The translations under genes were made by a program, and so were the position numbers. From Bacillus sp. KH172YL63 (GTDB lineage Bacteria > Bacillota > Bacilli > Bacillales > Bacillaceae_B), in the NCBI RefSeq assembly GCF_011398925.1, contig NZ_AP022842.1, positions 2,158,001-2,222,000 on the forward strand: DNA of 64,000 nucleotides, written 5' to 3'. This document shows positions 42,665-60,439 of the stretch, piece by piece (positions within the stretch are counted from its first letter, which is position 1; each line of letters starts with the position of its first letter). Below the pieces are notes generated by a model that saw only the letters and a program-made list of their open reading frames with translations, did no database searches and was not told the DNA's origin.

Positions 42665-42742
42665 CTCCTTTTATATGATGTTAGGAATATATGAGATTAT
42701 ACCAATTATTTCAAAATACTTCTGAAAATTCAATAAGCAAGT

Positions 42743-43940: not shown

Positions 43941-43943
43941 TAT

Positions 43944-43967: not shown

Positions 43968-44073
43968 CTCTTAACTGTACCTAAGCACCAGCCCCTCCGC
44001 GTGCCAGTTCACACAATATAAGGGTAGTATCATCAATTCATTTCCACTATAATAGCAGGAAGGAGGTGAGAAA

Positions 44074-44334
44074 ATGGACAAGCAAATCGTGAACATGTTA
44101 TCTGATATTCAACAGAACATGAAAGAATTCGACCGTAACCTAAAGGAATTCGGAAGTGATATAAAAGAGATAAAGGAAACGGTGAATAGAATTGAAGTAT
44201 CACAAACAGAAGATGTCATTGCTTTGTTAAAAGTAGGCAACCAGCGTTCTGAAACAGACTTTGATTATCTGAACACAAGATTAACAGATATCGATAAACG
44301 GGTTTTCACCCTTGAGAATCGATCGGAAGAGTAA
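44074..44334 (+). CDS. Small coiled-coil protein of unknown function
   Basis: An 86-residue acidic helical protein with heptad patterns (MLSDIQQNMKEFDRNLKEFG, IKEIKETVNRIEVSQ, and RLTDIDKRVFTLENR). Similar coiled-coil proteins occur in Bacillus genomes and phages; the role is unknown. AGGAGGTG precedes the ATG. The 425-base gap after it (44335-44759) holds a short GGGGGCCTGACCCCC hairpin at 44454 and nothing else I can support. Confidence 0.6.
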   Translation: MDKQIVNMLSDIQQNMKEFDRNLKEFGSDIKEIKETVNRIEVSQTEDVIALLKVGNQRSETDFDYLNTRLTDIDKRVFTLENRSEE

Positions 44335-44759: not shown

Positions 44760-45125
44760 TTAATGAAAGTTTAAGAGAAACCTAAATTTTTCATCTGACA
44801 AATGGATTCCTCTTCTTGCAAAAGTCGATCCGAAGCTCTCACCACCCCAAACCAACTCCCCCCCACTCACCCTCACCCTCTCCACCAGCCCACCCTCCTC
44901 CATCAACGTCAACATATCCATCATCACCGCAAACGGACTCTCAAACGATTGAAAGATCCCGGCGCTCTTCCCCGCTTCCCACAGTTCCCGATAGCTGATG
45001 AAGCCATAACCCGCATGCCGCAGGCACCGTTCCCCCTCAAGCAACTTCAAAACAACGCTATATAACCGTAAACTCTGCATCTGGAAATCCTCCTTGTTTT
45101 CCTGTGCATATTTCGTCATGAACAT
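44760..45125 (-). CDS. Phage-like protein of unknown function
   Basis: A 121-residue soluble protein, ATG 45125 after AAGGGGGAAAG. It has helical content (QSLRLYSVVLKLLEGERCLRHAG, FAVMMDMLTLMEEGGLVERVRV) and a wHTH-like feel at the C-terminal half. It lies just downstream of the decayed initiator copy in a region of phage character. No family is recognised. Confidence 0.5.
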   Translation of the reverse strand: MFMTKYAQENKEDFQMQSLRLYSVVLKLLEGERCLRHAGYGFISYRELWEAGKSAGIFQSFESPFAVMMDMLTLMEEGGLVERVRVSGGELVWGGESFGSTFARRGIHLSDEKFRFLLNFH

Positions 45126-45179
45126 CTCTCTTTCCCCCTTGCTCAGTGTTTTTAACTGGATCACCTCAAACCTCGATAT

Positions 45180-45613
45180 CCCAACCTGCCAATTTCCAAC
45201 CGGCTTCCCTATCTATATCCTTAGCGTCACTAATTGGTGTTGTTGTTCTCTGAAATCTCTTCTTTCTTTAAGATCTAAAGTCTGTTTGCACTCCCTCTCT
45301 ACACCCGATTCACATCACCATCGCCATGGGAAAACGCGCTGGAACCAGGTATGGTCACCACCGTATTCATCAACCGCTGAACCTCATGTCCAAGATTTGC
45401 AAACCTCCTCCTCAACTTGACCCCATCCCTCAAGACACCAGTCGACCCGTGATTCCCCACCACAATAGCCCCCATCTTCTTCACATACACACCAACTTCA
45501 ACAAACGTCCCGTGAATCAACTGGACGCCACCCATTCCATTCACCAACCCCACCAGCACATCCAACAACATCCACACCGTCATATCCAGCAGCACGCTTC
45601 CACAATCTCTCAT
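45180..45613 (-). pseudogene. Decayed third copy of the initiator-like gene
   Basis: Between about 45200 and 45370 the DNA aligns with the middle of the initiator-like genes at 46486 and 59445: GGTGGTGACCA..CTGGTTCC, GATGTGAATcGGGTG, GCAAACAGACTT and AAAGAAGAG are shared. In this frame it is broken by several stops. An open frame of 104 residues (45299-45613, ATG after AGGAGTGATCG) covers the 5' part but is not clearly similar to the other copies. The leader before it is conserved, so this is best read as a decayed copy. Confidence 0.55.
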
Positions 45614-45620
45614 GTCGATC

Positions 45621-45725
45621 ACTCCTGTTTCATTATGTACTCACTCTTTATATAGGCAAAAAAAAGAACAAAGGACACCCCTATAACAAAAGAATTTCAA
45701 TATACATTCGGGTAAGATCCGAATG
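45621..45725 (-). promoter_or_regulatory. Conserved leader, copy 0
   Basis: AGGAGT, a CTATATAAAG box at 45648-45657 and a CCCCT...AAAGGAC stretch match the leaders at 47340 and 60300. A CATTCGG-N7-CCGAATG hairpin at 45705-45725 also occurs at 60383-60403. Confidence 0.55.
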
Positions 45726-45839
45726 TTCTCTGGTGTTTCCACCCATCCAACTTTAATCAGCCCAAACCAATAAATCCCTTGAACTTACATCTATTTCATT
45801 TAGACTGAATATGATGACACTTTGAAAGGCGGATCATTC

Positions 45840-46421
45840 ATGCAGCCCACAACATTTACATTCAGACTTTCTGACGAAGGATATCTGGAGCTCCTTCGAA
45901 ACATGCCTTATATTAGAAAAATGTATGCATTCATCATCACAGTGCTGGTGACCCTCTGCACCCTATTTTCCCTGTCTATAAATGGTGACTTACAAGCGTA
46001 CACACGCTCTGCTTTTGAAGTCATAAGTGCCGGTGTAATCGCTTTCTTACTATCCTTCGTGTTTCTCATTGCCCTGTACTTTTATATTCGTTCAAAATGG
46101 AATCGGGGCTTAAAGAAACTCGCAAGGTCATTAAAAGAGAAATACCAGGGATCAAAAGATGAAGATTACATCATAGCGTTTGATCAGAATGAGAAAGCAT
46201 TCTACGTAGGATATCGCAGGCATAAAATTGAGATCGGCCAGCGTTTACATGTTGTTTCTACTTCAAACTATCTTCTTTTTTATCATGGAAAAGGAAAAGC
46301 TGAGGATAAATTTTATATTCCTAAAGGTGGCAAAGAAGGGCATCGGGAAAGTGTCCGGATCGTTGAAGCATTCTTGGAGAAATCGGAAGAAGTGCAGTTT
46401 AAAAGGAAAAGACCGTCGTGA
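45840..46421 (+). CDS. YcxB-like membrane protein
   Basis: A 193-residue protein with two membrane segments (about 30-50 and 64-88) and a C-terminal domain (about 100-190) with YIIAFDQNEKAFYVGYRRHKIEI, LLFYHGKGKAEDKFYIPKGG as in the YcxB family. Function unknown. The start is ATG 45840 after AAAGGCGGATC. It reads away from the conserved leader at 45621. A strong terminator overlaps its end. A decayed relative sits beside the third leader at about 60440. Confidence 0.75.
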   Translation: MQPTTFTFRLSDEGYLELLRNMPYIRKMYAFIITVLVTLCTLFSLSINGDLQAYTRSAFEVISAGVIAFLLSFVFLIALYFYIRSKWNRGLKKLARSLKEKYQGSKDEDYIIAFDQNEKAFYVGYRRHKIEIGQRLHVVSTSNYLLFYHGKGKAEDKFYIPKGGKEGHRESVRIVEAFLEKSEEVQFKRKRPS

Positions 46422-46442
46422 GTCCTCACGACGGTCTTTTTG
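46407..46442. terminator. Bidirectional terminator
   Basis: AAAAGACCGTCGTGAG and CTCACGACGGTCTTTT form a 16-bp stem with a 2-base loop, overlapping the end of the YcxB-like gene and lying before the convergent initiator-like gene. Confidence 0.88.
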
Positions 46443-46485
46443 TGTACTTATAAGCGTTCCGGCTGCTACAAATGATCGCTGGCAT

Positions 46486-47292
46486 CTACAGATGATTCTT
46501 CTCCTCCCTCAGACTCTCCTCCAGCTCGTCCAACATCTCATCAAGCTGCTCCATCGTTTCCCGCGGGGAGAGATATGTCTCAAGAGCCTTCTCCAAATAC
46601 CTCGGTGAGTGGATCGTCAGCCTCGAATTGACGCTCTGCTGCTTGTCAAACTGATCATCCATAAACGCAATCAGCTCATCGGTCGACAACTCATTCAAGC
46701 TGATCCGCTCCAACGCCAGGTAATCCATCGGCGACAAGATCAATCCTCTCCCCCTCCTGTAAATGAAATGGTCGATCAGCACCTGAAGCTTACCTATTTC
46801 CTTCACCCCGTTCATGCTCGTGGTATTCTCTAAAGCCCCTTCATTCTCTAAGGTCTTTTGACTATTTGCAGATTCCATCCACTCCTGTTCCACGTCCTGT
46901 TCACCGCAGAAAGACCGGCCGGAACCAGCCTCATCATCGAGCTGGTCACCACCGGATTCATCACCCCCATCCTTCACAGCCGTCCCCATCTCCCTGCAGG
47001 CGAAATCCTTCGCCGGTCGTAACGTAAACACATATCCATGCTCATACTTCTCCGCCTTCAACCACCCGCACTTCTCCAACCGCTTGATCGAACGCTGAAT
47101 CCGGGAATGGGAATACTCCTCAACCCCATTCTCATTATAAAACCACAAATCCTCCCGCAGCTGCCTAAGCGAGCGGACATACTGCCTCTCCCCTAGCACC
47201 ACACCGCCAACCAGGACCCCGCCTTTGTACGTTGAATTCAACAAGATCAATACATACAACCGAAGATCCTCCGTATGACGAAACGTCTCCAT
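46486..47292 (-). CDS. Initiator-like winged-helix protein, N-terminally interrupted copy
   Basis: A 268-residue protein closely similar over its length to the product of 59445-60290. The N-terminal domain carries a winged helix (ERQYVRSLRQLREDLWFYN, YSHSRIQRSIKRLEKCGWLKAEKY). A variable acidic linker follows, then a C-terminal domain with LILSPMDYLALERISLNELSTDELIAFMDDQF. In the intact copy translation starts 13 codons earlier; here that start (47331) is followed by an in-frame TAA at 47298-47296. Translation could restart at ATG 47292. It is probably a replication initiator as judged by the context of its twin. Confidence 0.75.
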   Translation of the reverse strand: METFRHTEDLRLYVLILLNSTYKGGVLVGGVVLGERQYVRSLRQLREDLWFYNENGVEEYSHSRIQRSIKRLEKCGWLKAEKYEHGYVFTLRPAKDFACREMGTAVKDGGDESGGDQLDDEAGSGRSFCGEQDVEQEWMESANSQKTLENEGALENTTSMNGVKEIGKLQVLIDHFIYRRGRGLILSPMDYLALERISLNELSTDELIAFMDDQFDKQQSVNSRLTIHSPRYLEKALETYLSPRETMEQLDEMLDELEESLREEKNHL

Positions 47293-47328
47293 CTCTTACA
47301 TATCCGTCTCCAACTTTCTCCATCCATT

Positions 47329-47395
47329 CATTACAATCACTCCTATTTCGTTTTGGTTTCATCTTTTATATAGGGGGATGGGAGGGAAAGGGATA
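47329..47395 (-). promoter_or_regulatory. Conserved leader, copy 1
   Basis: The sequence from AGGAGTGATTGTAATG back to the CCCTATATAAA box and AAAGGG matches the leader at 60288-60355 almost base for base; it drives the interrupted initiator-like gene. Confidence 0.6.
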
Positions 47396-47527
47396 CCTTT
47401 TAAAGTATTTTTTCACAAAAAAACCTACAGATTAATTAAAATCAATCTGCAGGGTGATTTTCACATATTTTCTCTATAGAATTACATCTCTGTTCTAGCA
47501 TTCATTCATTTTGAAAACCAATGTTTA

Positions 47528-47929
47528 TTACCTAGAACTTTGTATCATTTGTCGTCGTGTTATTAAATAATTGATTGTCCAATACAGTACTGGAATGAAA
47601 GAAAACAAAAGCAAATACACCAATGAGTAAACATTCATTTCCAACAGAACTCCCTGGTTCCCCGTGGGTAACAATATCATTAGGAAATAAATTAGTGAAT
47701 GCATCAAAAGTGAGTTCTTAATAAAATTAGATTTTTTTAGTAGTATCCAATCAATGAATAGCGATAATGGCAATCCAATAAGAAGCATAACTAAAAAGGT
47801 TATTGGTAAATATATTAGATATCCTAGGAATTCAAAAACACCCTCAGATAGAATAAATATTGAGTTTGCGATTAAACTGCATATGGTTAGGGATAACAGT
47901 TTATTAAGAGGTTTGTTAAATTCTTTCAA
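47528..47929 (-). CDS. Four-segment membrane protein (UPF0715-like)
   Basis: A 133-residue protein with four hydrophobic segments (about 11-28, 35-60, 73-92, 98-120) and a basic C-terminus. It resembles UPF0715 membrane proteins of Bacillus in size and topology. TTG start after GGGAGGG. It stands alone between the interrupted initiator-like gene and jetD and is unlikely to belong to either. Confidence 0.55.
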   Translation of the reverse strand: MKEFNKPLNKLLSLTICSLIANSIFILSEGVFEFLGYLIYLPITFLVMLLIGLPLSLFIDWILLKKSNFIKNSLLMHSLIYFLMILLPTGNQGVLLEMNVYSLVYLLLFSFIPVLYWTINYLITRRQMIQSSR

Positions 47930-48015
47930 AATATCCCTCCCAATTATTAGAGATTATCAATTTTTCACTTAAGAAAAAGACCCTCGTAAACGGTCACAAT
48001 GGCCTTCTTCTTTTT

Positions 48016-49299
48016 TTATATTCCTACATTCCCCTCTATATCTCCAACCAGCACTTCTACCATCGCTTCCTGATAACCAACTTTTTTTTCTATCTTCATC
48101 ACTTCAGCAACTTTCTTTAACCCATTATGCTGAAGTTTATCGACTTGACTCAAACGCTTATCAGTTAAGATTTCTTCTGATATTGAATCAGAATAAGTTT
48201 GTACATCCATCCTCCATAATCGGACGTTTCCCGGAAACCTTTCTACCAGTCGATCCGCGATAAGCATTCCTTCAGGATCAAGATCACCCGAATAGTAGAT
48301 TGTCAGCCCTGACATCGCAAGTTGTTCAATCAAAATCCAGCCGGCAATTCGCAGTTGTCCATGGGTACAGATGATTGGAGCACTGGGAACTAGGTCCATT
48401 AATGTAGAAGCCACGCTAGAATTCTCGACCACCCATACCACATTACCTTGTAATGGGTAGATTTTATTTACTTTTATCAACTCTTTTAGTGGTAAATTCA
48501 AAACTGTCCCCGTGTCTTGAGCTGCCTTCCATACAGGATGAATCCCTTGATTATTCTCAGCAATTAAGTTTAAACATGTCACAAAACTCCATAAATCATC
48601 CCTTATTATTCGATAATATCCAAGCAGATCATTTTCTTCTTCTGATGTTTTACTGAAACTGAGATCCGTTTCTTTACTTATCTGATCAATTGTCAACAAA
48701 TGAAGTAACATTTTCCCAAGTACCGTGTTCCGGTCGAATGCATGGGGATTGCCCGTTACCTTTTGAGCAAATAAAGGCAAGCGTATGAATGTTTCTTCTT
48801 CCTCTATCAACTTCCACGCTTTTCGCAGGAACCCCAAAGATTGTTCCAACTCAGTAGGATCTTCCTTGTATATTCTCCATATCCCTCTGGTATCTGCCGA
48901 CTTGGAAGAAATCCAATTAATATACCAATCAAGCTGAGGAAATTTCTCTTTCATGTTGTTCAAAAAGTGTTCTTCTCGTTCCTGCTCCTGTTTGAAACGC
49001 TCTTTGTTCGCTATTAACGATTCACCAAAGTAGTCTTCAAGAAACGATAGCAACGTATCATATTGATACCTTGTCCGGCTCAATTCTTTTTCAAACCTAA
49101 GAAGGGTAATCGATTGTTTCACTTTTAATTCTTCGACCGATAACCCCGTTAAACCGGAAATGGTCATTAACTCATCACTTGAAAATGATTTTAGGCTAAC
49201 CGAGCCACCAATCCTGCCGAGGGACTCGTATCTTTTTCTGAATAAGTGAAACAGCTTCTGAAAAGCCTTCTCCTTCTTAAGTAAGCTCAAGTCGTTCAT
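48016..49299 (-). CDS. jetD: Wadjet type II nuclease subunit JetD
   Basis: A 427-residue protein of the TIGR02679/DUF2399 type. The C-terminal TOPRIM-like nuclease domain carries YYSGDLDPEGMLIADRLVE near residues 334-352, with the Asp-x-Asp-x-x-Gly pattern. JetD cuts the plasmid DNA that the JetABC motor has extruded into a loop. The start is ATG 49299 after AGGAAGAG, overlapping the end of jetC by 23 bases. It is the last gene of a four-gene operon. Confidence 0.9.
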   Translation of the reverse strand: MNDLSLLKKEKAFQKLFHLFRKRYESLGRIGGSVSLKSFSSDELMTISGLTGLSVEELKVKQSITLLRFEKELSRTRYQYDTLLSFLEDYFGESLIANKERFKQEQEREEHFLNNMKEKFPQLDWYINWISSKSADTRGIWRIYKEDPTELEQSLGFLRKAWKLIEEEETFIRLPLFAQKVTGNPHAFDRNTVLGKMLLHLLTIDQISKETDLSFSKTSEEENDLLGYYRIIRDDLWSFVTCLNLIAENNQGIHPVWKAAQDTGTVLNLPLKELIKVNKIYPLQGNVVWVVENSSVASTLMDLVPSAPIICTHGQLRIAGWILIEQLAMSGLTIYYSGDLDPEGMLIADRLVERFPGNVRLWRMDVQTYSDSISEEILTDKRLSQVDKLQHNGLKKVAEVMKIEKKVGYQEAMVEVLVGDIEGNVGI

Positions 49300-52200
49300 A
49301 AATCTCTTCCTCTTCCTGATGAACTGGTTTCCTTTGAACCCCGTCCCATTCATAACGCATCACCGTTACGAAATCGGCGTTCTTTGGTCTCAATAGATCA
49401 GCGATTGACAAGGACGGCACTGTATCATAATCCCCCCACAATGCTTGTGAATTCATGATATAGTTAAAGCCTAACTGTTCAATGACTTCAAACATATCCC
49501 GAATATTGTTTTCATCCACTCCAGCGAATGCCTCGTCTAATGAAATGATATACGGCGCGGAATCTCCTGCCTCTTTATAGCGGGAATAAGCGGCCGTAAA
49601 CAACGGAATATACATGGCCATCGCCTTCTCTCCCCCAGAGAATTGGAAGAAGGCATTATTCGTCAACTCGCGCTTGACCCCTTCATTTTCCCTCTTGTAT
49701 GATAGGACGAACGTAAACCATTTCCGGTAATCCAGGACTTCTTTCAGAACCTGATGAAGGGTGGAACCTTCATTTCGTAAAGTGATCAATTCTTTGGCTT
49801 TGGCAATCCTGGATTGGAAATGACGGGTGATTTTATTTAGATCATCTTCATGCAGATGCTTACTGTCCCTTTCTAGCAAGCTCACAAGTTCCGCGGTGTC
49901 CATTTCTTCTTCTGATTCTGCGGTCTGCGCTTTCCAAGCAATCGAGAAGATCAATCCTGATGAATTGTCACGTGTAGACATGATCTTATCCATTTCCCGC
50001 ACCCATTTGGCTGCCCGCTTAATTCGGCTTCTTAGAATCGTTCCGATATGATTCAGCATGATATCCTCATACAGCTTCCGGTCCTGTTCATCTAGATTAC
50101 GATCCTGTTCTTCGTATGTTTTCGTTAGAATCTCGGCAAGATAGTAAGGATTGACCTGACTGCCATTGTAAGAAAAACGAATCATCCGGCGATCTTTCAA
50201 GTTGCTGTACTCTTTCACAATAGCTTCAAAGCGTTCTTCCTGCTCCCCGTTCATCCATTCAGGTGATTCCTTCTCTTCGGTATAAATGGTCATCCTGTAT
50301 TCCGATAGCATATGTTGTTCTTCATGGAATGCTTTGGATAGCTGTTCTAGTATTTTCGGTTTATCATATGAGGTTAACACGTCCCCATATACTGATAAAA
50401 TATTCTCCGCCTCGTGTTGGTCCACTTCTACAAACTGATGTTGGATTTCTTCTGCAACGTGTTGTTTCCACAAATCACGCATTTTCACCCAGAATTCTCT
50501 ATCTGCAACTTCCCTCTCTAACTCCGCATTCACCCGTTTTAAATCATTAGCTTTATCAGAAATTGCCTTTAGCAGGCTCTTCAGCTCATTCTTCACATGT
50601 TCATAGTTCTCTTGTACACGCCTAATTTCGTCCCTGATTTCATCCACACCTTTTAGGTTGAGCTGATCTTCAATGGACTCCATTTCCCTCTCGAGCTTGT
50701 CAACAGTTCCTTGTTCAACATTGATTTCACCCTTTAAATGATCTATCTCTTCTTCAATCTCATCAAGTAACCTTGCAAGGTCTGTGATCCGTTGACGGTT
50801 TGCCTGTAACTTAACCATTGAATTTTCAAGAGTATTGAGATTCCCTTCATATTCCTTCATCAACTTAAGTGCTACCGCTACGCTCTCCATATTCAGTTCA
50901 AAGCTAAACCGGCTGCTGTAATCGTACAGTTGCTGTTTCAGTCGACTTAGTGTGACCTGCACGTCTTTCCAGTTTCGGTCAGTTTGATCCAGCAATGCTT
51001 GTTGAATAGTACGATCTTTCTCAAACTTTACATATTGCTTTCGAATTTCAAGGAGCACACCATCTGATGGAATAGCATGTTGCCATTCTCTAATATCCTC
51101 AATAATCTGGGTTAAACGGGATATTTCCATACTGACTTTATCTCTGTCCTCATGTAAATCTTCAAGCTCTGCCAAAAGAAGAGCCATCTGCTCTTTTAAG
51201 TATCGTTTTCTTGATGTGCGACCGATGAATTTAGATGGACCCTCTTCCGGTGCATGACCTCTTATGATGCCATAGCTAAATGAGCCGTCTGTATCAATCA
51301 CAAACGCTCCAGCAGATTCCTCCATAGGAATGGAGCGAAGTATGTCATCCACCCTTTGGTTAGAAACAGCTGAGTCTCCTTCTACATCGGGTTTCAGGTA
51401 ATCAGCAAGGGTTTGCACCATGAGGAGTGGTTCCGGTATAAGGATCGCATCTTGTATGGGTTTGATCTCATCTGCTGTAATGAGGCTATCCAGGATCCCT
51501 GTCTGCTTAAGAACCGCTTCAATCCGGGACTTATCCTCTTCCGTTACACCATCCTTAAATTCCACTGCTTCATAAAATGGTATCCCGGAAACTCCTTTTT
51601 CTTTTAGACATTCACGGTGAGAAGAAGTTCCTTCCGAACGCTCTGGTTCAATCATTTTTTGTTCTTTCAATTGGGAAATCTGTCTATTCTTCTCTTGGAT
51701 CCGCTCTTCTAAGCTTCTGAGAAGAGTGTTCTGTTCATAGTTCTGTGTCCGAACCTCTTCCTTGTATTTATCCAGACTTTTGAGTAAGATTCCCTTCACT
51801 TGTTCATATGAATTCTCATCATAAAGCCCCTGAACAGATCGAGCTACATTCTGACGCTGTTCATTCGTGAAAGAAAGGGAGTCATGCTCAGACATCCACG
51901 TGAAAATAGCGGATTCCAGCTTCTGCAGTTCTTCCGTAAACCATTCCTCCGTATGGTCCATCTGTTGCAGGATTTCATCCACTTTCTGCTTTAACGTAGA
52001 AGATTCCCTTTCAAGCTCACCGTATCTATCTTGTTGTCGGGATCGTTCTTCAAGCAACTTCATGGCATCTGAAAGGACATTCTGATGGTTTAATACCGCT
52101 TTTTTCCAGACAGTAAAATCGTACAAGGATTCTTCCATCCGTTCGAAATCAGCTTGATTGATGGCATGTGTTGTAAAACCACATTCCTCTGCTAATTCTT

Positions 52201-53398
52201 CCAACTCAGCTAATAAGTCTTCTACTATACTAGCTGCCTTCGATTCGCTCTCCTCTAACGACCCCAGCTCATCCTTTTTCTTCACATAATCCTTGTGCTT
52301 TCTATCGTTGCTCTGTTCCAATCGTAAAACGGAGTCCTTTTTTCGCGAAGACTCCTTTTCAAGATCTTTCTTCTTCGCTTCAAGGGACCACACCTCATGA
52401 CGATTTAGCTGATCTTTCTGTTTCTCAAGCATGTCTTCTTCATTCGACAAATGTTCTTCTCTTTGTTCTAGTTCTGCAATCTCGACTTTCATCCCGGCTT
52501 TACTTTGCTGAAGTTCATTCACCGTTTTTTCTTTAAGGATGACCTTACTTTCTGTATATTGCCACTTTTCCGCTCTTTCAGCTAACACGTAACGATTATA
52601 CCTGTCGTATACCCGAAGAACTTTTTCCATCGATTTCTTTTGACTGGATAATCGTTCTAATTCTTGCTGAGCCTGATCCATGTGATCAATACTGTCAGAC
52701 AAATATCGGATTTCATCGTCGGTAAGAGGTGGCAATGCCGATTCAAGAATTTCATAAATCACCGTTGGTTTAAAATCTTTTGATAACTTAGGGCTTCTTA
52801 ACTGAATCAATAATTTAATAAGGTCCTCATAGGCTTCGGTTGATTGAAAGCCGAACACATGGCGATTGACAAGTTCCATATACTCCCTCTGAGAATTTAC
52901 TACTTCTCCCCCGGAACTAATCCGGTTCTTTAGCTCTTTTTCTGACATGGGAACCTTTTCCCCTGCATGAGTAAGCGTAAGAGAAAAGTCAACTCCAATC
53001 CGTCGATTATCTGTGATGACGAAATACCATGACTTCATTTGCTTATTCCGTTTCGCCTGCATACCCATACCTGTTGTCATATACTGTCCAGTACTTTCCT
53101 TCACATACTCCATAAAGAGATAGCCCGTCCGCTCATCACGATCCACAATCCCTTTTTCTCCAAGAAGATAATCTTCCATTCTTCTTGCTTTGGAACCAAA
53201 CGGATCCAGTCTGTCAGGAGACTTCCTCCCGTCCAATAACACAGGAAGAAAGCTCTGCATTGTAACGGACTTCCCTGACCCATTTGCTCCACGGAGCAGC
53301 AGCTTACCGTCTTTAAAGTGAAACGTCTCTTCATCGTAATACCAGAAGTTCACGAGGCCGGCGCGGTTTAATTTCCATTGTTCATGACTCACTGTCAT
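49277..53398 (-). CDS. jetC: Wadjet type II SMC-like ATPase JetC
   Basis: A 1373-residue SMC/MukB-like protein of the TIGR02680 type. Walker A GANGSGKS is at about residues 37-44, two long coiled coils (about 290-480 and 780-1060) surround a hinge-like central region, the ABC signature FSGGEKAMA is near residue 1250 and Walker B YIISLDEAFAGVDE near 1280. It is the loop-extruding motor of the anti-plasmid complex. ATG 53398 or GTG 53392 may be the start; it overlaps the end of jetB. Length and motifs look intact. Confidence 0.95.
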   Translation of the reverse strand: MTVSHEQWKLNRAGLVNFWYYDEETFHFKDGKLLLRGANGSGKSVTMQSFLPVLLDGRKSPDRLDPFGSKARRMEDYLLGEKGIVDRDERTGYLFMEYVKESTGQYMTTGMGMQAKRNKQMKSWYFVITDNRRIGVDFSLTLTHAGEKVPMSEKELKNRISSGGEVVNSQREYMELVNRHVFGFQSTEAYEDLIKLLIQLRSPKLSKDFKPTVIYEILESALPPLTDDEIRYLSDSIDHMDQAQQELERLSSQKKSMEKVLRVYDRYNRYVLAERAEKWQYTESKVILKEKTVNELQQSKAGMKVEIAELEQREEHLSNEEDMLEKQKDQLNRHEVWSLEAKKKDLEKESSRKKDSVLRLEQSNDRKHKDYVKKKDELGSLEESESKAASIVEDLLAELEELAEECGFTTHAINQADFERMEESLYDFTVWKKAVLNHQNVLSDAMKLLEERSRQQDRYGELERESSTLKQKVDEILQQMDHTEEWFTEELQKLESAIFTWMSEHDSLSFTNEQRQNVARSVQGLYDENSYEQVKGILLKSLDKYKEEVRTQNYEQNTLLRSLEERIQEKNRQISQLKEQKMIEPERSEGTSSHRECLKEKGVSGIPFYEAVEFKDGVTEEDKSRIEAVLKQTGILDSLITADEIKPIQDAILIPEPLLMVQTLADYLKPDVEGDSAVSNQRVDDILRSIPMEESAGAFVIDTDGSFSYGIIRGHAPEEGPSKFIGRTSRKRYLKEQMALLLAELEDLHEDRDKVSMEISRLTQIIEDIREWQHAIPSDGVLLEIRKQYVKFEKDRTIQQALLDQTDRNWKDVQVTLSRLKQQLYDYSSRFSFELNMESVAVALKLMKEYEGNLNTLENSMVKLQANRQRITDLARLLDEIEEEIDHLKGEINVEQGTVDKLEREMESIEDQLNLKGVDEIRDEIRRVQENYEHVKNELKSLLKAISDKANDLKRVNAELEREVADREFWVKMRDLWKQHVAEEIQHQFVEVDQHEAENILSVYGDVLTSYDKPKILEQLSKAFHEEQHMLSEYRMTIYTEEKESPEWMNGEQEERFEAIVKEYSNLKDRRMIRFSYNGSQVNPYYLAEILTKTYEEQDRNLDEQDRKLYEDIMLNHIGTILRSRIKRAAKWVREMDKIMSTRDNSSGLIFSIAWKAQTAESEEEMDTAELVSLLERDSKHLHEDDLNKITRHFQSRIAKAKELITLRNEGSTLHQVLKEVLDYRKWFTFVLSYKRENEGVKRELTNNAFFQFSGGEKAMAMYIPLFTAAYSRYKEAGDSAPYIISLDEAFAGVDENNIRDMFEVIEQLGFNYIMNSQALWGDYDTVPSLSIADLLRPKNADFVTVMRYEWDGVQRKPVHQEEEEIYERLELT

Positions 53399-54563
53399 CA
53401 CCCTTTCTAGTAAAGTCGTCTGGATATTTCCCTGCAAGGATTCCAAATAACGGCTTAATATAAATCATGACTTCATCTGTTTCAGCCATCATCCAGCTTT
53501 TCATGGAAGAAATGCATTCCTTTCTGATGGTCTCAACCGAAGCGTCACGGAAATACTTTGACCAACCTGCACCATTCTTCTGCCTTAACTCAATGATGTA
53601 CTGATCGAATTCACCTGTCGTCAACAACAAGTCTCCTGATTCGAGGGGAGAAAGGGAAGAACGCTTTTCATACAGATGATAGGACAGCTGCAACAACACA
53701 TCGGTCACTGCCTTAGCATCTGGAAAATACTCATATTTATAATTGGGTTCTTGGGATGATAAGAATGCCGTATTCTTGAACAATCTAAGGCGATAATGGC
53801 TATGTTTCTCGATATCTTCCATAATTCTGTTTCGAAAATTCCTAATATATATAAAGTCGGGGTCGCTGCTCGATTTTCTATGTAAACCCGGTGAAAAGAA
53901 CAATTGCCGGTAGACCCGCTTACGTGTCTCATCTTCCTGCTGGAATTTCCAGTCTTCATTGAGTAAATTCTGCCAGCTGGTAAACTGAGTCAAGTCCTCA
54001 GGAAAAGAACGAATGAAATATTTACTATAAACCGTTGTTTCATAGAGTACCTCATGCTCCTCGTCTGTATCAAACCTCTGAATATTCCCGTCCACAGTAC
54101 GAATCAAATGAAGGTCTGTCATCGTTTTGATTGTGCGGATCAGAGATTTCCGGTGGGTATAAACCGTCCAATCAATTCCTTCATCCCCCGTGTAGTCATG
54201 CCTAATCTCCTCAGCCAGTTCTGATAACAGAAACTGTTCAGCGACAGATTTCTCCTCAAGATATGCCATAGCATAACAAAACAGCGCATAATCTCTTTGC
54301 TCCTGAAAAGAAGCAATACCCATCCAGGCTTCCGGTTCAACCGGAATCTTCTCAAGCTTAATAAAATGCTGATGGACGATTAATAAAAGCCCAAATTTGT
54401 CATCAAGATACCGCCTTAATACTTTTTCTCTTTCACGAATCAACTGATATTCTTGTGGATGCTCACTTCGCAATATCCAAAACTCATGCAAAAGAAGTTC
54501 AAGCCCTTCTATCGCTTTATCATCGAATTCAACGGTCTGAACCTGCTCCAACCTATAACCCAC
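53382..54563 (-). CDS. jetB: Wadjet type II subunit JetB (DUF2398/TIGR02678)
   Basis: A 393-residue soluble protein with the TIGR02678 pattern: IEGLELLLHEFWILRSEHPQEYQLIREREKVLRRYL, then FQEQRDYALFCYAMAYLEEKSVAEQFLLSELAEEI, and DEEHEVLYETTVYSKYFIRSFP. It is the KITE-like (MukE-type) subunit of the Wadjet condensin. The GTG at 54563 overlaps the jetA end; a TTG four codons on is an alternative. Length is right for type II and longer than type I JetB. Confidence 0.92.
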   Translation of the reverse strand: MGYRLEQVQTVEFDDKAIEGLELLLHEFWILRSEHPQEYQLIREREKVLRRYLDDKFGLLLIVHQHFIKLEKIPVEPEAWMGIASFQEQRDYALFCYAMAYLEEKSVAEQFLLSELAEEIRHDYTGDEGIDWTVYTHRKSLIRTIKTMTDLHLIRTVDGNIQRFDTDEEHEVLYETTVYSKYFIRSFPEDLTQFTSWQNLLNEDWKFQQEDETRKRVYRQLFFSPGLHRKSSSDPDFIYIRNFRNRIMEDIEKHSHYRLRLFKNTAFLSSQEPNYKYEYFPDAKAVTDVLLQLSYHLYEKRSSLSPLESGDLLLTTGEFDQYIIELRQKNGAGWSKYFRDASVETIRKECISSMKSWMMAETDEVMIYIKPLFGILAGKYPDDFTRKGDDSES

Positions 54564-56046
54564 CTTTCATTTCTAATGTCACATCCGGCATTTTTAAGAC
54601 CCCATCTTCGGCATGCATGATGGTCATCCGATCTCTGTGCACGTGCACCTTCACTGTGAATCCATAGTCGGTTTTAATCACCCGGCTCTTACTGGACATT
54701 GCCTTTCCGATCCAACCTAGTATTACTTTCCGAACAAAAGGCTTTACCACTCCAAGCTCTGAAACCGTCATCTTCTGGTCTGTAAATAGAGTCTCAATCA
54801 TCGTCCGTTCCTCCGCCCTTTCAGCGAGGTGCTTTTGCATCAAGGCTTTTTTCTTTTCATCATTTGAAACCATGGCCCCAGGTTTCGTTTTATCCTTAAA
54901 GGACCTGATGCGCGGTTTAATTGGCAGAATGATTGGTTCTTCCTCCCAAATGTCTGAATGAATATTTTCCGTAGTATCTTCTTCTATCTTTAAATGACGA
55001 ATCGTCATTGAGCCGAAAACAACCGCTGATAATTGATGGGCGTCTTCCATTGAATGGCTTCCACTGAATAGTTCAGCAAGGTGAAGATAATCTTTCTTTC
55101 GACTGTGATGACTATGGTGCCGCTCGCTCATCCGCTGGACATATCGGGTAATTCGCCTGATCATTTCATTCGTCTGCAGCTGCAGCATCTCGAGCTCGCT
55201 TGATTGGCCCTCGCTCCCGATGAACCACGATCTCATCACCCGCCAGAAATCATAGAACTCCTGGTACCAATCCAGCACCGTTTCTTCACTGATTTCCTCC
55301 AACCGTGGTATTTGCCTTCTATAATCAGCAAGCTTGTCAAAGAAAGGAGCGACAAGCTGTTGATCCATTCTCTCCAACTGATCTGAAATCTGAAAGGACG
55401 TTTTCTGAAGAGACACAATAAAGTCTCTTAAATACGTCGTGAATTGATTCTTATACACCAAGAACGCCTCACTCTGCATCCGCTGATCTGTTTGTTCACT
55501 ATTTATATAGGCGATGTAATCAGCCGTGTTCGTTCGAATCGTCTGGAAATATTGCAGGAGATCTTCCCATAAGAGCATATATGTCTCAGGAGATTCCGGC
55601 AGATCCTTCTTCAACTCATGTTCCAGCTTATTCATGGATTCAAGCAATCGGTCAAATTGGGATTTCTCAAGAGAACCTCCAAAACTTTCTCCGCTCTTCT
55701 TCTCAAGTGTCGCCACCATTCTCTCGATCTCAATCGTATAAGGCGTAGATTGATAACGAAACCGTTTCTTCTTATACTCTTCAATCGTCTTTGCGTTCGT
55801 CATGTCCTGCCTGGCATTCAGGTTCTTCCACTTCACCAGCTGAGCAAGTTGGACGAGAAGCTGTTCCTCCTCATAACGCTCGTAATGGGGAAGTGATCTC
55901 AAATAATCCAACACCTCTTCCGGTGAAATGAAGTCTCTCATCCGTTCATGTTGCATATAAAAGTATCGTAGAATCGTTCGATACTCTGGAGCGTTCTCTG
56001 CTGTCAGATAACTCGCTTCGATGAGCTTTTTCATAGGACCTTGCAT
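54553..56046 (-). CDS. jetA: Wadjet type II subunit JetA (DUF2397/TIGR02677)
   Basis: A 497-residue protein opening YLTAENAPEYRTILRYFYMQHERMRDFISPEEVLDYL and continuing LVKWKNLNARQDMTNAKTIEEYKKKRFRYQSTPYTIEIERM, the pattern of the TIGR02677 family. It is the kleisin-like (MukF-type) subunit. A promoter lies at 56108-56136 and AGAGGTG precedes the ATG. It is the first gene of jetABCD, and all four overlap or nearly touch. Confidence 0.92.
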   Translation of the reverse strand: MQGPMKKLIEASYLTAENAPEYRTILRYFYMQHERMRDFISPEEVLDYLRSLPHYERYEEEQLLVQLAQLVKWKNLNARQDMTNAKTIEEYKKKRFRYQSTPYTIEIERMVATLEKKSGESFGGSLEKSQFDRLLESMNKLEHELKKDLPESPETYMLLWEDLLQYFQTIRTNTADYIAYINSEQTDQRMQSEAFLVYKNQFTTYLRDFIVSLQKTSFQISDQLERMDQQLVAPFFDKLADYRRQIPRLEEISEETVLDWYQEFYDFWRVMRSWFIGSEGQSSELEMLQLQTNEMIRRITRYVQRMSERHHSHHSRKKDYLHLAELFSGSHSMEDAHQLSAVVFGSMTIRHLKIEEDTTENIHSDIWEEEPIILPIKPRIRSFKDKTKPGAMVSNDEKKKALMQKHLAERAEERTMIETLFTDQKMTVSELGVVKPFVRKVILGWIGKAMSSKSRVIKTDYGFTVKVHVHRDRMTIMHAEDGVLKMPDVTLEMKGGL

Positions 56047-56107
56047 GATTCATGCACCTCTTTTCATGGCGATCATACTTCATTCAACTCTGTATGTATA
56101 TGGAACA

Positions 56108-56136
56108 ATTATATCAGCAATGGGGGTATAAGTTAA
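56108..56136 (-). promoter_or_regulatory. Promoter of the Wadjet operon
   Basis: On the minus strand TTAACT (56136-56131) and TATAAT (56113-56108) are 17 bases apart, 60 bases upstream of jetA. Confidence 0.6.
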
Positions 56137-56272
56137 TGGAATGACAAGAGTGATGGAGAGGTAAGATTGGGTGGAAGGAATTTAGGAGTATCCATTGTAA
56201 ATCTCCCTATACTTTATTCTTAAAATCAGATGGTTTATAATAAAGATAAATCATTCAAAGTTGGTGATGTAA

Positions 56273-56503
56273 ATGGAACCTATAAGAATTGAACAAGATG
56301 ATGTAAAAAAGGCAATTCAATCGGGGCATTCATACATCCAAGTCGGTAAACGAAAGTATTTATTAATGGAAGTAGAAGAAATCAGTAACAATGATGGTTA
56401 CCAAGTAACAGATCCAGAAGAAGAAAAGCAAATATTGAAGGCATTAGAGGAAGATAATCCGATCCTTTCAGAAGAAGATATAAGGAAGATGTTAGAGAGT
56501 TAA
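56273..56503 (+). CDS. Antitoxin-like protein of a type II toxin-antitoxin pair
   Basis: A 76-residue acidic protein whose C-terminal half (VTDPEEEKQILKALEEDNPILSEEDIRKMLES) is typical of antitoxins that wrap around RelE/ParE toxins, with an N-terminal strand-helix start that may bind DNA. GGTGATG precedes the ATG. The toxin gene follows after 4 bases. The pair diverges from the Wadjet operon, 226 bases from jetA. Confidence 0.65.
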   Translation: MEPIRIEQDDVKKAIQSGHSYIQVGKRKYLLMEVEEISNNDGYQVTDPEEEKQILKALEEDNPILSEEDIRKMLES

Positions 56504-56507
56504 AGCC

Positions 56508-56813
56508 ATGAGAATAGTGTGGAGAAAGTCGGCGATTTCTTCCCTTATAGCTCTTGATAGATGGAGACAAACCATTGAACTTCAACCCATTGCAACATAT
56601 CTAAAAGAAACCATTGAATTGTATTTTATTCACCAGGATTTTTCAGTTCATATTCCAGGAAGACATGTACTTATAAAGAAAATGCCCGTTGACCTACGAA
56701 TGGTATTAATATCTATAGGAAAGTCGGATCCCTATAAAATCTTTTACAGAATAAAATTGAATCAGATTGAAATCTTTTTAGTACGTCATCCTCACCAAAG
56801 GTCAGTTGAGTAA
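56508..56813 (+). CDS. RelE/ParE-like toxin
   Basis: A 101-residue basic protein with VWRKSAISSLIALDRWRQTI as helix 1-2 and LRMVLISIGKSDPYKIFYRIKLNQIEIFLVRHPHQRS as the C-terminal sheet with the IxxRHP-like end, as in RelE/ParE toxins. Such toxins cut mRNA in the ribosome or poison gyrase; which applies is not known. It follows the antitoxin gene by 4 bases and ends at a terminator at 56840. Confidence 0.7.
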   Translation: MRIVWRKSAISSLIALDRWRQTIELQPIATYLKETIELYFIHQDFSVHIPGRHVLIKKMPVDLRMVLISIGKSDPYKIFYRIKLNQIEIFLVRHPHQRSVE

Positions 56814-56839
56814 TTAGGATACAGGCTAATTCCTATAAA

Positions 56840-56877
56840 AAAAGATCCACATCTTCCATTAGAAGTGTGGATCTTTT
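56840..56877 (+). terminator. Terminator of the toxin-antitoxin operon
   Basis: AAAAGATCCACA and TGTGGATCTTTT form a 12-bp stem with a 14-base loop, 26 bases after the toxin stop. Confidence 0.85.
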
Positions 56878-56926
56878 AATGTAAAGTAACATGGCAAGAG
56901 TCAGACACCTATTCATGTTAACGATT

Positions 56927-57658
56927 TTATTCCGTCAAATGTTGAACAGCATAATCCGCTTCCTCTTGAGTAAACTGTTCACCGTATTCAGAAACAAGTT
57001 GGTCTCTTATCGCTTCTGGTGACATGGCCATTGTATCTTGATAACTTTTGGCTTTTTCCAAGGCGTTCTTTTTATAATCGGCTTTCATTGTATCGATCGC
57101 ATATTGTGCTTCTTCCGCAGTGAACTGTTCACCGTGCTCTGAAATGAGCTGATCATAGATGGCTTCCTTTGACATGTACATCGTATCAGAGTAAGATTCC
57201 GCCTTTTTCAATGCGTTGTCCTTCCAATCAAATTCAAGCTTTTCCATGGCATACGCAGCCGCTTCCTCGGAAAACTTTTCACCATACTCTGAAACTAATT
57301 GATTATGAATCGCTGCTTTGGACATATTCATGATCTCAGCGTAAGTTTTCGCTTTTGTCAAAGCGGATGCATGTTCTGCGGGGACGTCATCTTCCACTTT
57401 TGCTTCTTCTTTTTTGGGTTCCTCTGGTTTGGGCTGTTCTGTTTTAGGCTCCTCTGTTTTGGGTTCCTCTTTTATATTTTCTGACTCTTTTGGCTCAACC
57501 GCAACGGGTTCTGTAGCTTCTGATTTGACTTCCTTTTCCTTCGTATCAACCGCCTCATCACCATTCCCACCAACAGCTGCTGCAACAATCAGAATCACAA
57601 TGACCCAGACCCACCACTTTTTATAAAACGGTTTTTTCTTTTTTGGTGATTCCCCCAC
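56927..57658 (-). CDS. Membrane-anchored protein with three Ltp-type repeats
   Basis: A 243-residue protein. An N-terminal membrane segment (about 12-28, YKKWWVWVIVILIVAAAVGG) is followed by a Lys/Glu/Pro linker (about 34-92), then three repeats of about 45 residues of the Ltp/PF07553 type, each with ALxKAxxYxxxMxMSxxAIxxQLxSExGExFxxEEAxYAxxxL. In the Streptococcus phage TP-J34 Ltp, such repeats block DNA injection of infecting phages. Here the anchor is a membrane helix instead of a lipobox. GTG start after AGGGGG. Its position in a defence island supports an exclusion role. Confidence 0.8.
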   Translation of the reverse strand: MGESPKKKKPFYKKWWVWVIVILIVAAAVGGNGDEAVDTKEKEVKSEATEPVAVEPKESENIKEEPKTEEPKTEQPKPEEPKKEEAKVEDDVPAEHASALTKAKTYAEIMNMSKAAIHNQLVSEYGEKFSEEAAAYAMEKLEFDWKDNALKKAESYSDTMYMSKEAIYDQLISEHGEQFTAEEAQYAIDTMKADYKKNALEKAKSYQDTMAMSPEAIRDQLVSEYGEQFTQEEADYAVQHLTE

Positions 57659-57830
57659 TAGCTGTACCCCCTTATATTGGTAAACCTACATAAGAAGTAT
57701 ATTTTCCTTGATCGACAAACATGCAGGGAGTCTGTAATCAATGCTCAGGGACCAGTCCCCTCGGCTTCAGAAAAACACAGCCAGCAATCTCTGTAACCTG
57801 TATTTGCTAATAGAACTGACCCCGGATTAC

Positions 57831-59189
57831 TCAAACCGAAGCAACAGTACCGTCCCCCTGCATACACCCACCCCGAAACCGCCCAAACTCCCTCACAAAC
57901 TCCAACTTCACCGTCCCCACCGGCCCATTCCGGTTCTTCGCAATCTTCACTTCCACTTCCTGACCGTTCTTCGAATCTGGATAGTAGTAATCATCCCGGT
58001 ACAGAAACAACACCACATCCGCATCCTGCTCGATATTCCCCGAGTCACGCAGATCCGACAGTCTCGGCCGCTTGTCATCTCTGGACTCGACTCCCCTCGA
58101 TAGCTGGGACAGCAGAATGATCGGAATCCCAAACTCCTTCGCCATCCCCTTCAGCTGCTTCGTAATATGGCCAATCGCCAGATCATGCCTGTCGAAACGC
58201 TCCTTCACCGTGATCAGCTGCAGGTAATCAATCACCACTAGAAACGGCTCTGTCGGGTAGTCCCGCTTCAGGTTCATGATCCGCTGCCTGATCTCCGGCA
58301 GAGTGATCATCCCATTCTGTGAGAGTTCAAGTTTCGCTTTGTATACCGCATTCATCGCCCCGTGCATCCTCGGCATCTCGTCCTTCGTCAGATACTTGTA
58401 GGGATTCTGCCATTTCATCATGTTAATATCCGTCAAACTTGAAAGTAATCGCTGCATAATCTGTCTCGAACTCATCTCTAAGGAGAACACCATGCTCACC
58501 CCATTCTCCCGCGTACATTCCCAGGCAAGCTGGATGGCAAAAGCCGTCTTCCCCATAGAAGGTCTCGCCGCCAGGATGATGAGCTCCCCTTCCTTCCAGC
58601 CTCCCGTCAGCGCATTCAAGCTCTCGAAACCTGTCGTGACACCGGGAAGTCCGTCCCTCTCCATGTAAAGAGATTCATAGAGATCCATGATGATGTCGTC
58701 CTTCGTTTCTTCGTCAGTGATCGTGTTGGTATGCATATCGATGAGTGCTTTGTAGAGGCCATGTGCGGATTCTGGGGTGTAGGCGTTCAGGAAATGATGG
58801 GCTGAATTCTTGATGAGGCTCAGTTCGTAATACTTCAGTACGATCTGTTCATACTGCTCGATGTTCACTGTCGTCGGACAGTAGTTGGCAAGAGTCAGAA
58901 GAAACTGAACCCCGCCTACATTCTCAATGTCATCCCCCAGCTCCTCCACCAGCATCACGAGATTAATCTCGAGCCTCTTCTTCTGCAGCCCCTTCATCGC
59001 TTTAAAAATAAGGCGGTTCCTCACCAGGCTAAAATGCTTTTCCTCTAGGGTCAGTGTATCCAACACATCCGCATCCAGAAGAACCGCTCCAATAATCATA
59101 CTCTCCGCTTCATGTAACTCCCGAAGCAGCTGCTCATCGTGCCCAGGGTGGTGCAGGCCGTGTCCACTCATTTCTACGTTCATTCTCAA
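57831..59189 (-). CDS. Phage-type replicative DnaB helicase
   Basis: A 452-residue protein. The N-terminal domain of DnaB (EAESMIIGAVLLDADVLDTLTL) is followed by a RecA-like domain with Walker A AARPSMGKT (about residues 205-213), MVFSLEMSSRQI, Walker B-like LVVIDYLQLIT and LSQLSRGVESRDDKRP. The G40P helicase of phage SPP1 has a similar length, and the gene follows a G39P-like gene, as in SPP1. A TTG at 59189 or ATG at 59183 may be the start; both overlap the upstream gene. It most likely unwinds the element's own origin. Confidence 0.88.
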   Translation of the reverse strand: MRMNVEMSGHGLHHPGHDEQLLRELHEAESMIIGAVLLDADVLDTLTLEEKHFSLVRNRLIFKAMKGLQKKRLEINLVMLVEELGDDIENVGGVQFLLTLANYCPTTVNIEQYEQIVLKYYELSLIKNSAHHFLNAYTPESAHGLYKALIDMHTNTITDEETKDDIIMDLYESLYMERDGLPGVTTGFESLNALTGGWKEGELIILAARPSMGKTAFAIQLAWECTRENGVSMVFSLEMSSRQIMQRLLSSLTDINMMKWQNPYKYLTKDEMPRMHGAMNAVYKAKLELSQNGMITLPEIRQRIMNLKRDYPTEPFLVVIDYLQLITVKERFDRHDLAIGHITKQLKGMAKEFGIPIILLSQLSRGVESRDDKRPRLSDLRDSGNIEQDADVVLFLYRDDYYYPDSKNGQEVEVKIAKNRNGPVGTVKLEFVREFGRFRGGCMQGDGTVASV

Positions 59190-59448
59190 TTCGTATCGCC
59201 CCTTCTTTTTCCCATGCTTCCATGGTTTCTAGTATCGTAGTTTCCTCCACCGGCAGTTCATACAGCTCGGAAATCTTCGGTATGTGCGGACTCACTTTAA
59301 TATGGGCTGCGATCCGCCTCTTCACCACATGATAATCACAGTCCTTCAGGTGCTGAAACCAGATATTCGCCGTCTCTCGAGTGAGCGGTCGCTGAGGATA
59401 AGCTCCCTGGATCATCTTCACCAACTCCCTGAACTCATCAATCGTCAT
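59134..59448 (-). CDS. G39P-like helicase loader/inhibitor
   Basis: A 104-residue protein with the N-terminal fold of SPP1 G39P: FRELVKMIQGAYPQRPLTRETANIWFQHLKDCDYHVVKRRIAAHI, then SPHIPKISELYEL. G39P binds the helicase and helps deliver it to the initiator-bound origin. The ATG overlaps the stop of the initiator-like gene as ATGA, and its own 3' end overlaps the helicase start by 56 bases, giving tight coupling of the three genes. Confidence 0.8.
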   Translation of the reverse strand: MTIDEFRELVKMIQGAYPQRPLTRETANIWFQHLKDCDYHVVKRRIAAHIKVSPHIPKISELYELPVEETTILETMEAWEKEGAIRIENERRNEWTRPAPPWAR

Positions 59449-60290
59449 GCCTCCGTCACAATCTCCTCAAGCCCATCCAAAAGGTCATCGATGTGCTCCA
59501 TGGATCCCCGAGGAGAAATGTACCCCTCAAGCGCCTTCTCCAAATACCTTGGACTGTTGATTGTCAGCTTCGGATTGATGCTCTGCTGTCTATCAAACTC
59601 CTCATCCATGAACACAATCAGCTCCTCCGTTGACAACTCGCTCAAGCTGATCCGCTCCATCGACACATAATCCATCGGGGTCAAGATTAATCCTCTTTCC
59701 CTTCTGCTAATGAAATGTCCGATCAGCGCCTCGAGCCTCTCTCCTTCCTTAGTGCCGTTAAGGTTGGTGGTGTTCTCTTTCTCTTCTTTCTCTAAGTTCT
59801 TAAGTCTGTTTGCAGGTTCTCTCCGCACCCCATTCACATCCTTATTGCCGCACGAAGACTTCCCGGAACCAGCCCCATCATCAGGCTGGTCACCACCGGA
59901 TTCCTCACGTCCCTCTTCCTTTTTAGACATTCCCATCCAACTCAAATACTCCCCACAGGCGAAATCCTTCGTCGGCCTCAGCGTAAACACAAACCCATGC
60001 TCATACTTCTCCGCCTTCAACCATCCATCCCTCTCCAGCCGCTTAATCGACCGCTGAATCCGGGAATGGGAATACTCATCAATCTTCTTCCCATTATAGA
60101 ACCACAGATCCTCCCGCAGCTTCCGGAGCGAACGCACATACTGCCTCTCCCCCAGCACCACACCACCAACCTGAACCCCACCTTGATACGTCGCATTCAA
60201 CAGAATCAACACATACAACCGAAGATCCTCCGGGTGATGAAACGTCTCCTTATCCAACATACCTGTCTCCAACTTTCTCCATCCATTCAT
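59445..60290 (-). CDS. Initiator-like winged-helix protein, intact copy
   Basis: A 281-residue protein with an N-terminal winged helix (ERQYVRSLRKLREDLWFYN, YSHSRIQRSIKRLERDGWLKAEKYEHGFVFTL), an acidic Gly/Ser-rich linker (about 125-165), and a C-terminal helical part (LTPMDYVSMERISLSELSTEELIVFMDEEF, PRYLEKALEGYI) as in DnaD/replisome-organiser proteins. By position it plays the role of SPP1 G38P ahead of the G39P-like and DnaB genes. The start is ATG 60290, eight bases after AGGAG. It is closely similar to 46486-47292. Confidence 0.75.
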   Translation of the reverse strand: MNGWRKLETGMLDKETFHHPEDLRLYVLILLNATYQGGVQVGGVVLGERQYVRSLRKLREDLWFYNGKKIDEYSHSRIQRSIKRLERDGWLKAEKYEHGFVFTLRPTKDFACGEYLSWMGMSKKEEGREESGGDQPDDGAGSGKSSCGNKDVNGVRREPANRLKNLEKEEKENTTNLNGTKEGERLEALIGHFISRRERGLILTPMDYVSMERISLSELSTEELIVFMDEEFDRQQSINPKLTINSPRYLEKALEGYISPRGSMEHIDDLLDGLEEIVTEA

Positions 60291-60403
60291 TACAATCACT
60301 CCTATTTCGTTTTGGTTTCACCCTTTATATAGGGAGATGGGAGTGAAAGGGACACCCTATGGATAATTTTTTATTAAAAAAACATTCGGGTGGGGTCCGA
60401 ATG
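60288..60403 (-). promoter_or_regulatory. Conserved leader, copy 2
   Basis: AGGAGTGATTGTA-ATG, CCAAAACGAAATA, a CCCTATATAAAG box at 60326-60341 and GTGTCCCTTTC are shared with the leader at 47329-47395. A CATTCGG-N7-CCGAATG hairpin at 60383-60403 is shared with the leader at 45621. Confidence 0.6.
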
Positions 60404-60439
60404 GTTAAAGGCGAATATATGAAATTGTTAAAACGCAGA

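Follow-up and report, generated by a model that had tools for sequence, protein, structure and literature searches.

Direct initiator copies around Wadjet in a Rossellomorea defence island as probable records of past arrivals at a replication operon

The stretch of DNA analysed here, 64,000 nucleotides of Bacillus sp. KH172YL63 (contig NZ_AP022842.1) and hereafter called the window, holds three copies of an initiator-like gene (A, B, and C), all on the minus strand, with A and B enclosing a Wadjet defence system. We consider it somewhat probable that the locus is an accretion hotspot that lacks an integrase, is present in many species of the genus, and has as its core the replication module left by an old integrative element. 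The copies flanking Wadjet look like records of past arrivals, not repeats that release the defence system today. The loci that have names, a few still under Bacillus, point to Rossellomorea as the genus. In many of its species an SPP1-like operon, usually comprising initiator, G39P-like helicase loader, DnaB, and a fourth gene that we call F2, borders a variable defence island on the left. The window holds the following parts of this operon (lengths in amino acids, aa).

59445..60290, minus strand: copy A, an intact initiator-like gene of 281 aa (phrog_7498, DnaD-like helicase loader, 1.9e-19)
60291..60406, minus strand: leader of A, with a hairpin (60380-60406), a T run, and TATATAAAG and AGGAGTGAT, both conserved; the exchanged defence block has its left end here
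59134..59448, minus strand: G39P-like helicase loader, 104 aa (phrog_2289 "helicase loader", 5.7e-13)
57831..59189, minus strand: DnaB-like replicative helicase, 452 aa (PF03796, 1.7e-86)
46486..47331, minus strand: copy B, in which codon 12 is TAA; no loader or helicase gene downstream
45180..45613, minus strand: copy C, a decayed initiator of which the leader and some 160 bp from the middle remain
45696..45725, minus strand: hairpin ahead of C, resembling that of A
44760..45164, minus strand: F2, 134 aa, stranded beside C; the fourth operon gene in relatives

An earlier note on this DNA had described three same-orientation copies of an initiator-like cassette, two of them around Wadjet, and this description holds, with a direct-repeat spacing of about 12,950 bp between A and B. 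The initiator-like identity holds as well, A being followed by the loader and DnaB genes, and C is indeed decayed: its initiator frame is broken by stops, the longest frame from the leader runs to 107 codons (45299-45622), and the middle of about 160 bp is 69.6% identical. The note had also called A and B close paralogues, which overstates their likeness, as 743 of 941 aligned columns are identical (79.0%), the longest three perfect runs are 56, 29, and 26 nt, and the proteins are 71% identical. Nor can 46486-47331 be read as one gene, since the TAA at codon 12 interrupts the frame; the ATG that follows it at 47292 opens 268 codons. The leader said to be the same in all copies is common to the three, but the hairpin preceding it is shared by A and C only, and B has a different terminator-like hairpin, with CTATATAAAA instead of CTATATAAAG. 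The resemblance of A and B is not due to chance, since a whole-genome search with the B stretch returns A at E = 2.6e-228. A blastn search with A recovers C at 8.8e-13, the whole-genome protein search only at 0.0068; the latter also gave a fourth, decayed copy 1.02 Mb away (genome position 3239212).

The predicted model of copy A has a winged helix at the N-terminus, a disordered linker, and helices at the C-terminus. Sequence searches of the PDB gave no useful relative, and the Foldseek and VIA lists consist chiefly of unrelated winged helices, so that the absence of other families from them is uninformative. A known phage or plasmid initiator was rejected as a candidate, as tblastn at 1e-5 returned no match among 50,697 phage and 72,556 plasmid records. 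The same holds for an origin within the initiator gene: a repeat search of the A and B stretches found no iteron array, the repeats present being scattered two-copy families and one three-copy 10-mer in the B stretch.

The earlier note took A and B for direct repeats of about 850 bp between which recombination would excise or amplify a circle of 12.9 kb carrying Wadjet, a proposal that we now regard as very improbable. The geometry fits, with both copies on the same strand and about 12,950 bp apart, and there is one perfect run of 56 nt. That this is the longest identical run, and that excision or amplification is seen in none of the 16 other mapped loci, leaves the circle unsupported; the low identity that was to count against it is what the alignments gave (69.6% for the middle of C; 79.0% for A and B, which differ by a synonymous divergence (dS, substitutions per synonymous site) of 0.58). 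The comparison covers one strain of the window species, and among the 16 other loci Wadjet occurs only in G029, where it does not lie between copies, so that none shows loss or amplification of the unit (compared genomes carry G-numbers, G000 being the window's own). The layout itself does recur in relatives, with two direct copies in G025 and three in G006 around other cargo, and in G006, whose copies are more alike, recombination of the proposed sort may still take place.

The relatives comprised 61 genomes including the window's own, 36 of them of the genus, and an initiator match was obtained in 29, every one among these 36. Seventeen loci with an initiator identity of at least 65% were mapped; of the remaining 19 genus genomes, four distant species and G034 were mapped as well, and 14 lie outside the mapping. 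Operon fragments were counted from 35 bits up. Extra fragments occur in 10 of the 17 loci, 13 in all and each on the strand of the main operon (two each in G000, G006, and G032; one each in G025, G004, G021, G012, G005, G010, and G016). Three of them are weak, those of G005 and G010 at 36-37 bits and the second F2 of G004, a 35-bit stub. The extras lie mostly left of the main operon; G006 and G025 are reversed, the copy with DnaB and F2 being leftmost and the extra initiators to its right. In both genomes these right-hand initiators end in a truncated loader gene, which is followed by cargo and then by the hairpin and the next initiator, a form to be expected from single-crossover entry of a circle bearing initiator and cargo.

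The four distant species, whose initiators are about 40% identical, have the same four-gene operon beside an island, and a stop-free initiator is present in 21 of 21 loci (the 17 mapped and these four, hence 21 of the 36 genus genomes). DnaB is broken or missing in G025, G004, G017, and G005. Since the initiator is kept even where loader and helicase have been lost, it probably still serves some purpose by itself. Identity among the three G006 copies is 95.2-96.5%, perfect runs measure 100-133 nt, and their pairwise ratios of nonsynonymous to synonymous divergence (dN/dS) of 0.10-0.15 argue that all three are under purifying selection. F2 measures about 100-140 aa among the loci, with up to three copies per locus (G032), and its window copy has no family match in Pfam, PHROGs, or NCBIfam. 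In G034 (L138, 9545-11856), an initiator, loader, and DnaB that are 37%, 44%, and 73% identical stand without F2 among ordinary-looking genes.

A second place in the genomes also carries initiator copies, as seen in the ten genomes examined there. G006 has three relics, two of which enclose a second lasso-like cluster (L119, 8405-16766; proteins 55-71% identical). Two relics are present in G014 and likewise in G017, where one is split in two pieces; G035 also has two copies, and the rest hold one, intact in G005 only.

The accretion reading would explain these patterns as follows. The Rossellomorea locus would descend from an integrative element that lost its integrase. Incoming DNA bearing its own initiator would recombine with the resident operon, duplicate initiators would remain around the newly arrived cargo, and the redundant copies would then decay. 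Cargo would in this manner be gained and swapped through repeated homologous recombination at the operon.

The cargo found between copies differs from genome to genome. In the window it consists of Wadjet, a toxin-like pair, and Ltp, and the Wadjet type II gene set is complete, with JetA2, B2, C2, and D2 assigned by PADLOC to contiguous genes on one strand. The genes between the operon parts, together with F17 on the far side of B, are these.

56927..57658, minus strand: Ltp / superinfection-exclusion lipoprotein (PF07553, 1.5e-68; phrog_4980, 8.3e-98)
56508..56813, plus strand: possible ParE-like toxin (PF05016, 0.098, under the cut-off)
56273..56503, plus strand: small gene, possible antitoxin by position alone; no antitoxin-type family match
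54553..56046, minus strand: Wadjet JetA, type II (PADLOC JetA2, 2.8e-194)
53382..54563, minus strand: Wadjet JetB, type II (PADLOC JetB2, 4.4e-146)
49277..53446, minus strand: Wadjet JetC, type II (PADLOC JetC2, E = 0)
48016..49353, minus strand: Wadjet JetD, type II (PADLOC JetD2, 5.5e-145)
47528..47929, minus strand: open reading frame (ORF) of 133 aa between JetD and B, no assigned function; weak Pfam matches only
45822..46421, plus strand: F17, a 199-aa gene divergent from C (sequence comparison with relatives)

Reading of the proteins, with no family search, indicates a lanthipeptide-dehydratase-like protein and a transporter between the G025 copies. A type I restriction system, guessed there from ORF lengths, was dropped once the proteins were read. 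Read in the same way, G006 has a lasso-peptide-like cluster between two of its copies and small genes between two, and G004, G021, and G005 carry a 16 kb island of metabolic genes between F1 and F2 fragments.

The history of the copies can be followed through their divergence. The initiator tree disagrees with the rpoB tree, and in 74 of 136 species pairs the initiator has a lower dS than rpoB, with a Spearman correlation of 0.19. For these pairs G025 is represented by its right copy, the lowest of three copies was taken for G006, which favours low initiator dS there, and B, the left copy of G025, G000b, and G005b were excluded. The sister species G010 and G012 differ by an rpoB dS of 0.056 vs. 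an initiator dS of 0.595, and since their DNA identity is 92-98% in DnaB vs. 74-82% in the initiator, the switch point falls in the loader gene. In G017 and G035, near-identical in rpoB, the operon is about 95-96% identical and the islands right of the hairpin differ. The window and G017 are 81-94% identical over the operon and then 94-100% right of about 60,400, at the hairpin, with 91.6% in rpoB. On the strength of sequence comparison, these cases show that initiator alleles and islands have moved between species, and that in the pairs examined the exchanged islands start either at the hairpin preceding the initiator or within the gene for the loader.

A local tandem duplication in the window lineage followed by divergence seems quite improbable against this background. 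It would account for the shared strand and neighbourhood of A and B, B falls inside the main initiator clade (with weak support and on a long branch), and one G006 copy is marginally nearest to a sister copy. However, the A-B dS of 0.58 is above the rpoB dS of G000 to all 16 other species (0.35-0.47), so the two copies did not arise by local duplication in recent time. The two G025 copies are likewise nearer to copies elsewhere than to each other, the right one to G004 (96.9%) and the left one to G031 (94.6%), with a mutual identity of 92.8%. The closest relative lies in another species for six of the seven copies of G000, G025, and G006. In G025 part of the left copy is of the type found in the right one, which points to recombination between copies or alleles, and a test for a hybrid copy (21:10 vs. 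8:36; Fisher 2.7e-5) fits a single crossover in the 3' half.

Accretion would also leave layers of different age, and the window can be read in this way. The leader of C together with F17 (45610-46354) matches G005 25188-25966 at 73-79%, and the stretch with the toxin pair and Ltp (56199-57729) matches G005 26138-27666 at 90%. These two stretches are neighbours in G005, whereas B and Wadjet separate them by 9.8 kb in the window, so that C, F17, and F2 look older as a layer than the block that ends in A. The oldest layer would then be C, F17, and F2, the block of toxin, Ltp, DnaB, loader, and A would be young, and B with Wadjet would have come between. F17 also stands directly upstream of the initiator in four relatives (G005, G014, G029, and G031), and Ltp beside DnaB recurs in G021 as a relic.

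A possible source of the operon is found outside the genus. A search of 299 genomes from the order gave matches at 1e-15 in 18, nine of them outside the genus. In G265, which belongs to another family, initiator, loader, and DnaB lie within an intact-looking element of 20,088 bp at tRNA-Val (gac) (L135 and L140, contig 30, 505390-525520), with an integrase, identical attachment (att) repeats of 43 bp, which were searched for in G265 only, and a small gene that reads as excisionase-like. The cargo of this element is a type I CRISPR-Cas system with Cas genes including Cas3 and an array of at least 41 repeats. Protein identity to Rossellomorea is 27% for the initiator, 37% for the loader, and 44% for DnaB; the window's loader has no G39P Pfam match, its G265 homologue matching PF11417 over the cut-off. 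From these similarities the Rossellomorea locus would plausibly descend from an element of the G265 kind, minus its integrase.

The copies could also be the leftovers of several ordinary prophages that integrated independently, which we think unlikely. The module does resemble phage replication genes, and in G288 its homologues, on the minus strand and with the operon order unchanged, have an integrase-like gene about 8.5 kb away. The small gene at 44074-44334 has a weak, coiled-coil-like PHROG tail match (0.0019). Against this, no structural, lysis, or packaging gene was recognised among the ORFs scanned in 44760-60290, and all 13 counted extra fragments are on one strand and at one place.

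The accretion reading fits these features better in our view, and it agrees with the finding that the 17 loci contain no intact integrase (PF00589) or resolvase (PF00239), with one integrase fragment in the G017 locus. A number of points weigh against it. The recombinase search took in these two families only and did not extend to transposases. No recombination junction was caught in the act. Copy B has no loader or helicase remnant, and its layer therefore needs later deletions. Among the 16 other loci Wadjet is present in G029 only, in the same region and with no initiator copies flanking it, so that cargo can occur without being linked to a copy. Seven of the 17 loci have no extra copy, a 51-nt initiator-like match right of the G031 operon was left uncounted, and at the second place the two copies of G035 are on opposite strands. 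The seventh of the copies compared above, in G006, is marginally nearest to a copy of its own genome (96.5 vs. 96.4%). In the G025 hybrid test the 5' half lacks specificity for the sister species, which makes the test suggestive and not diagnostic. Finally, the G265 initiator is only 27% identical, and descent from such an element is for this reason something we infer.

The units may also be mobile still, each initiator with its cargo leaving as a circle that replicates from that initiator and re-enters by a single crossover with a resident initiator, without an integrase; as a general account this seems rather unlikely to us. The structure of hairpin, initiator, truncated loader, and cargo in G006 and G025 is consistent with it, as are the three intact G006 copies with their low dN/dS, the lasso-like clusters of that genome at two places, both between initiator copies, and the fact that the initiator is the part always retained. 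On the other side, no circle, junction, or plasmid form was seen, the phage and plasmid search was empty, no iteron array was found in A or B, and in the window the identity of A and B is too low. A form that is still mobile is possible in multi-copy strains such as G006. We hold it doubtful that there is a wider, recombinase-free mobility in which such self-copying circles enter related chromosomes through homologous recombination, the initiator being rep gene, landing site, and boundary of the unit in one, and in which clusters for defence and bacteriocins spread through the genus.

Lactococcal Per draws phage replication proteins away. By analogy, the operon could be a domesticated decoy replicon whose resident initiator or origin diverts the replication proteins of phages with a similar module, to which we give a slim chance. 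The operon stands at the edge of a defence island, a lipoprotein of the superinfection-exclusion type adjoins it, and the initiator is conserved without its partners, but origin repeats were not found in A or B. Per is cited in PMC3445015.

Comparison with known systems sets the accretion reading in context. According to PMC6316719, gp38-gp39-gp40 of SPP1 are an origin-binding initiator, a G39P-type loader, and a DnaB-type helicase. The window has the same three genes adjacent and in the same order. Unlike in SPP1, the Rossellomorea operon is chromosomal and has F2 as a fourth gene, A and B yielded no origin repeats, where SPP1 has oriL in the initiator gene, and in some species helicase or loader is lost while the initiator stays. 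In streptococci, integrative and mobilizable elements, integrative and conjugative elements, and decayed elements accrete in tandem (PMC5357655). Both cases have elements and relics of differing cargo stacked at a single site, but streptococcal accretion uses att site-specific recombination and integrases, whereas no intact integrase was found at the Rossellomorea loci and the shared part is the replication operon. Staphylococcal cassette chromosome (SCC) cassettes stack and carry defence genes. SCC and SCCmec are chromosomal cassettes with a replication module (PMC7581432). In being chromosomal and carrying such a module they resemble the Rossellomorea loci, but Ccr recombinases are central to SCC, whereas no intact serine recombinase was found here, and the helicase genes are of another type. 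The G265 element is like the window in that a homologous initiator-loader-DnaB operon stands beside defence cargo, and differs in its integrase, tRNA-Val target, and 43-bp att repeats. Phage-inducible chromosomal islands are similar in that they are small, integrate, and combine a replication module with accessory cargo; the Rossellomorea locus differs in having no intact integrase.

In the open-licence literature searched, no description of such an arrangement was found. How defence islands keep gaining genes without an integrase is an open question, for which this locus offers a testable case: a small operon marks the island edge in many species of the genus, copies delimit cargo units, alleles pass from species to species, and an intact-looking element in a distant genome hints at a possible source of the operon. 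It also warns that flanking direct repeats can reflect past arrivals and not present excision.

To the right of the operon the window continues with two further genes.

60969..61883, minus strand: DUF4420 protein, MzaD-like (PF14390, 1.2e-32; PADLOC MzaD, 2.1e-9)
61852..63900, minus strand: MzaC-like gene (PF10593, 1.4e-50; PADLOC MzaC, 8.4e-52)

Two large genes after this pair, among the part of the neighbours that was scanned, score as type IV restriction enzymes, and the assignment of the right-hand system to MZA is accordingly tentative. The window has no tRNA gene. A short repeat of GGGGACGGTTCT type, which may be an element like the repetitive extragenic palindromic (REP) kind, occurs at 42742-42772 and 43941-43971 and, in G005 and G025, at some operon ends. 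About 0.22 Mb from the locus, at 1982301 on contig 1 of G000, stands a dif-like site that departs from the consensus at two positions, and the island may therefore be in the terminus region.

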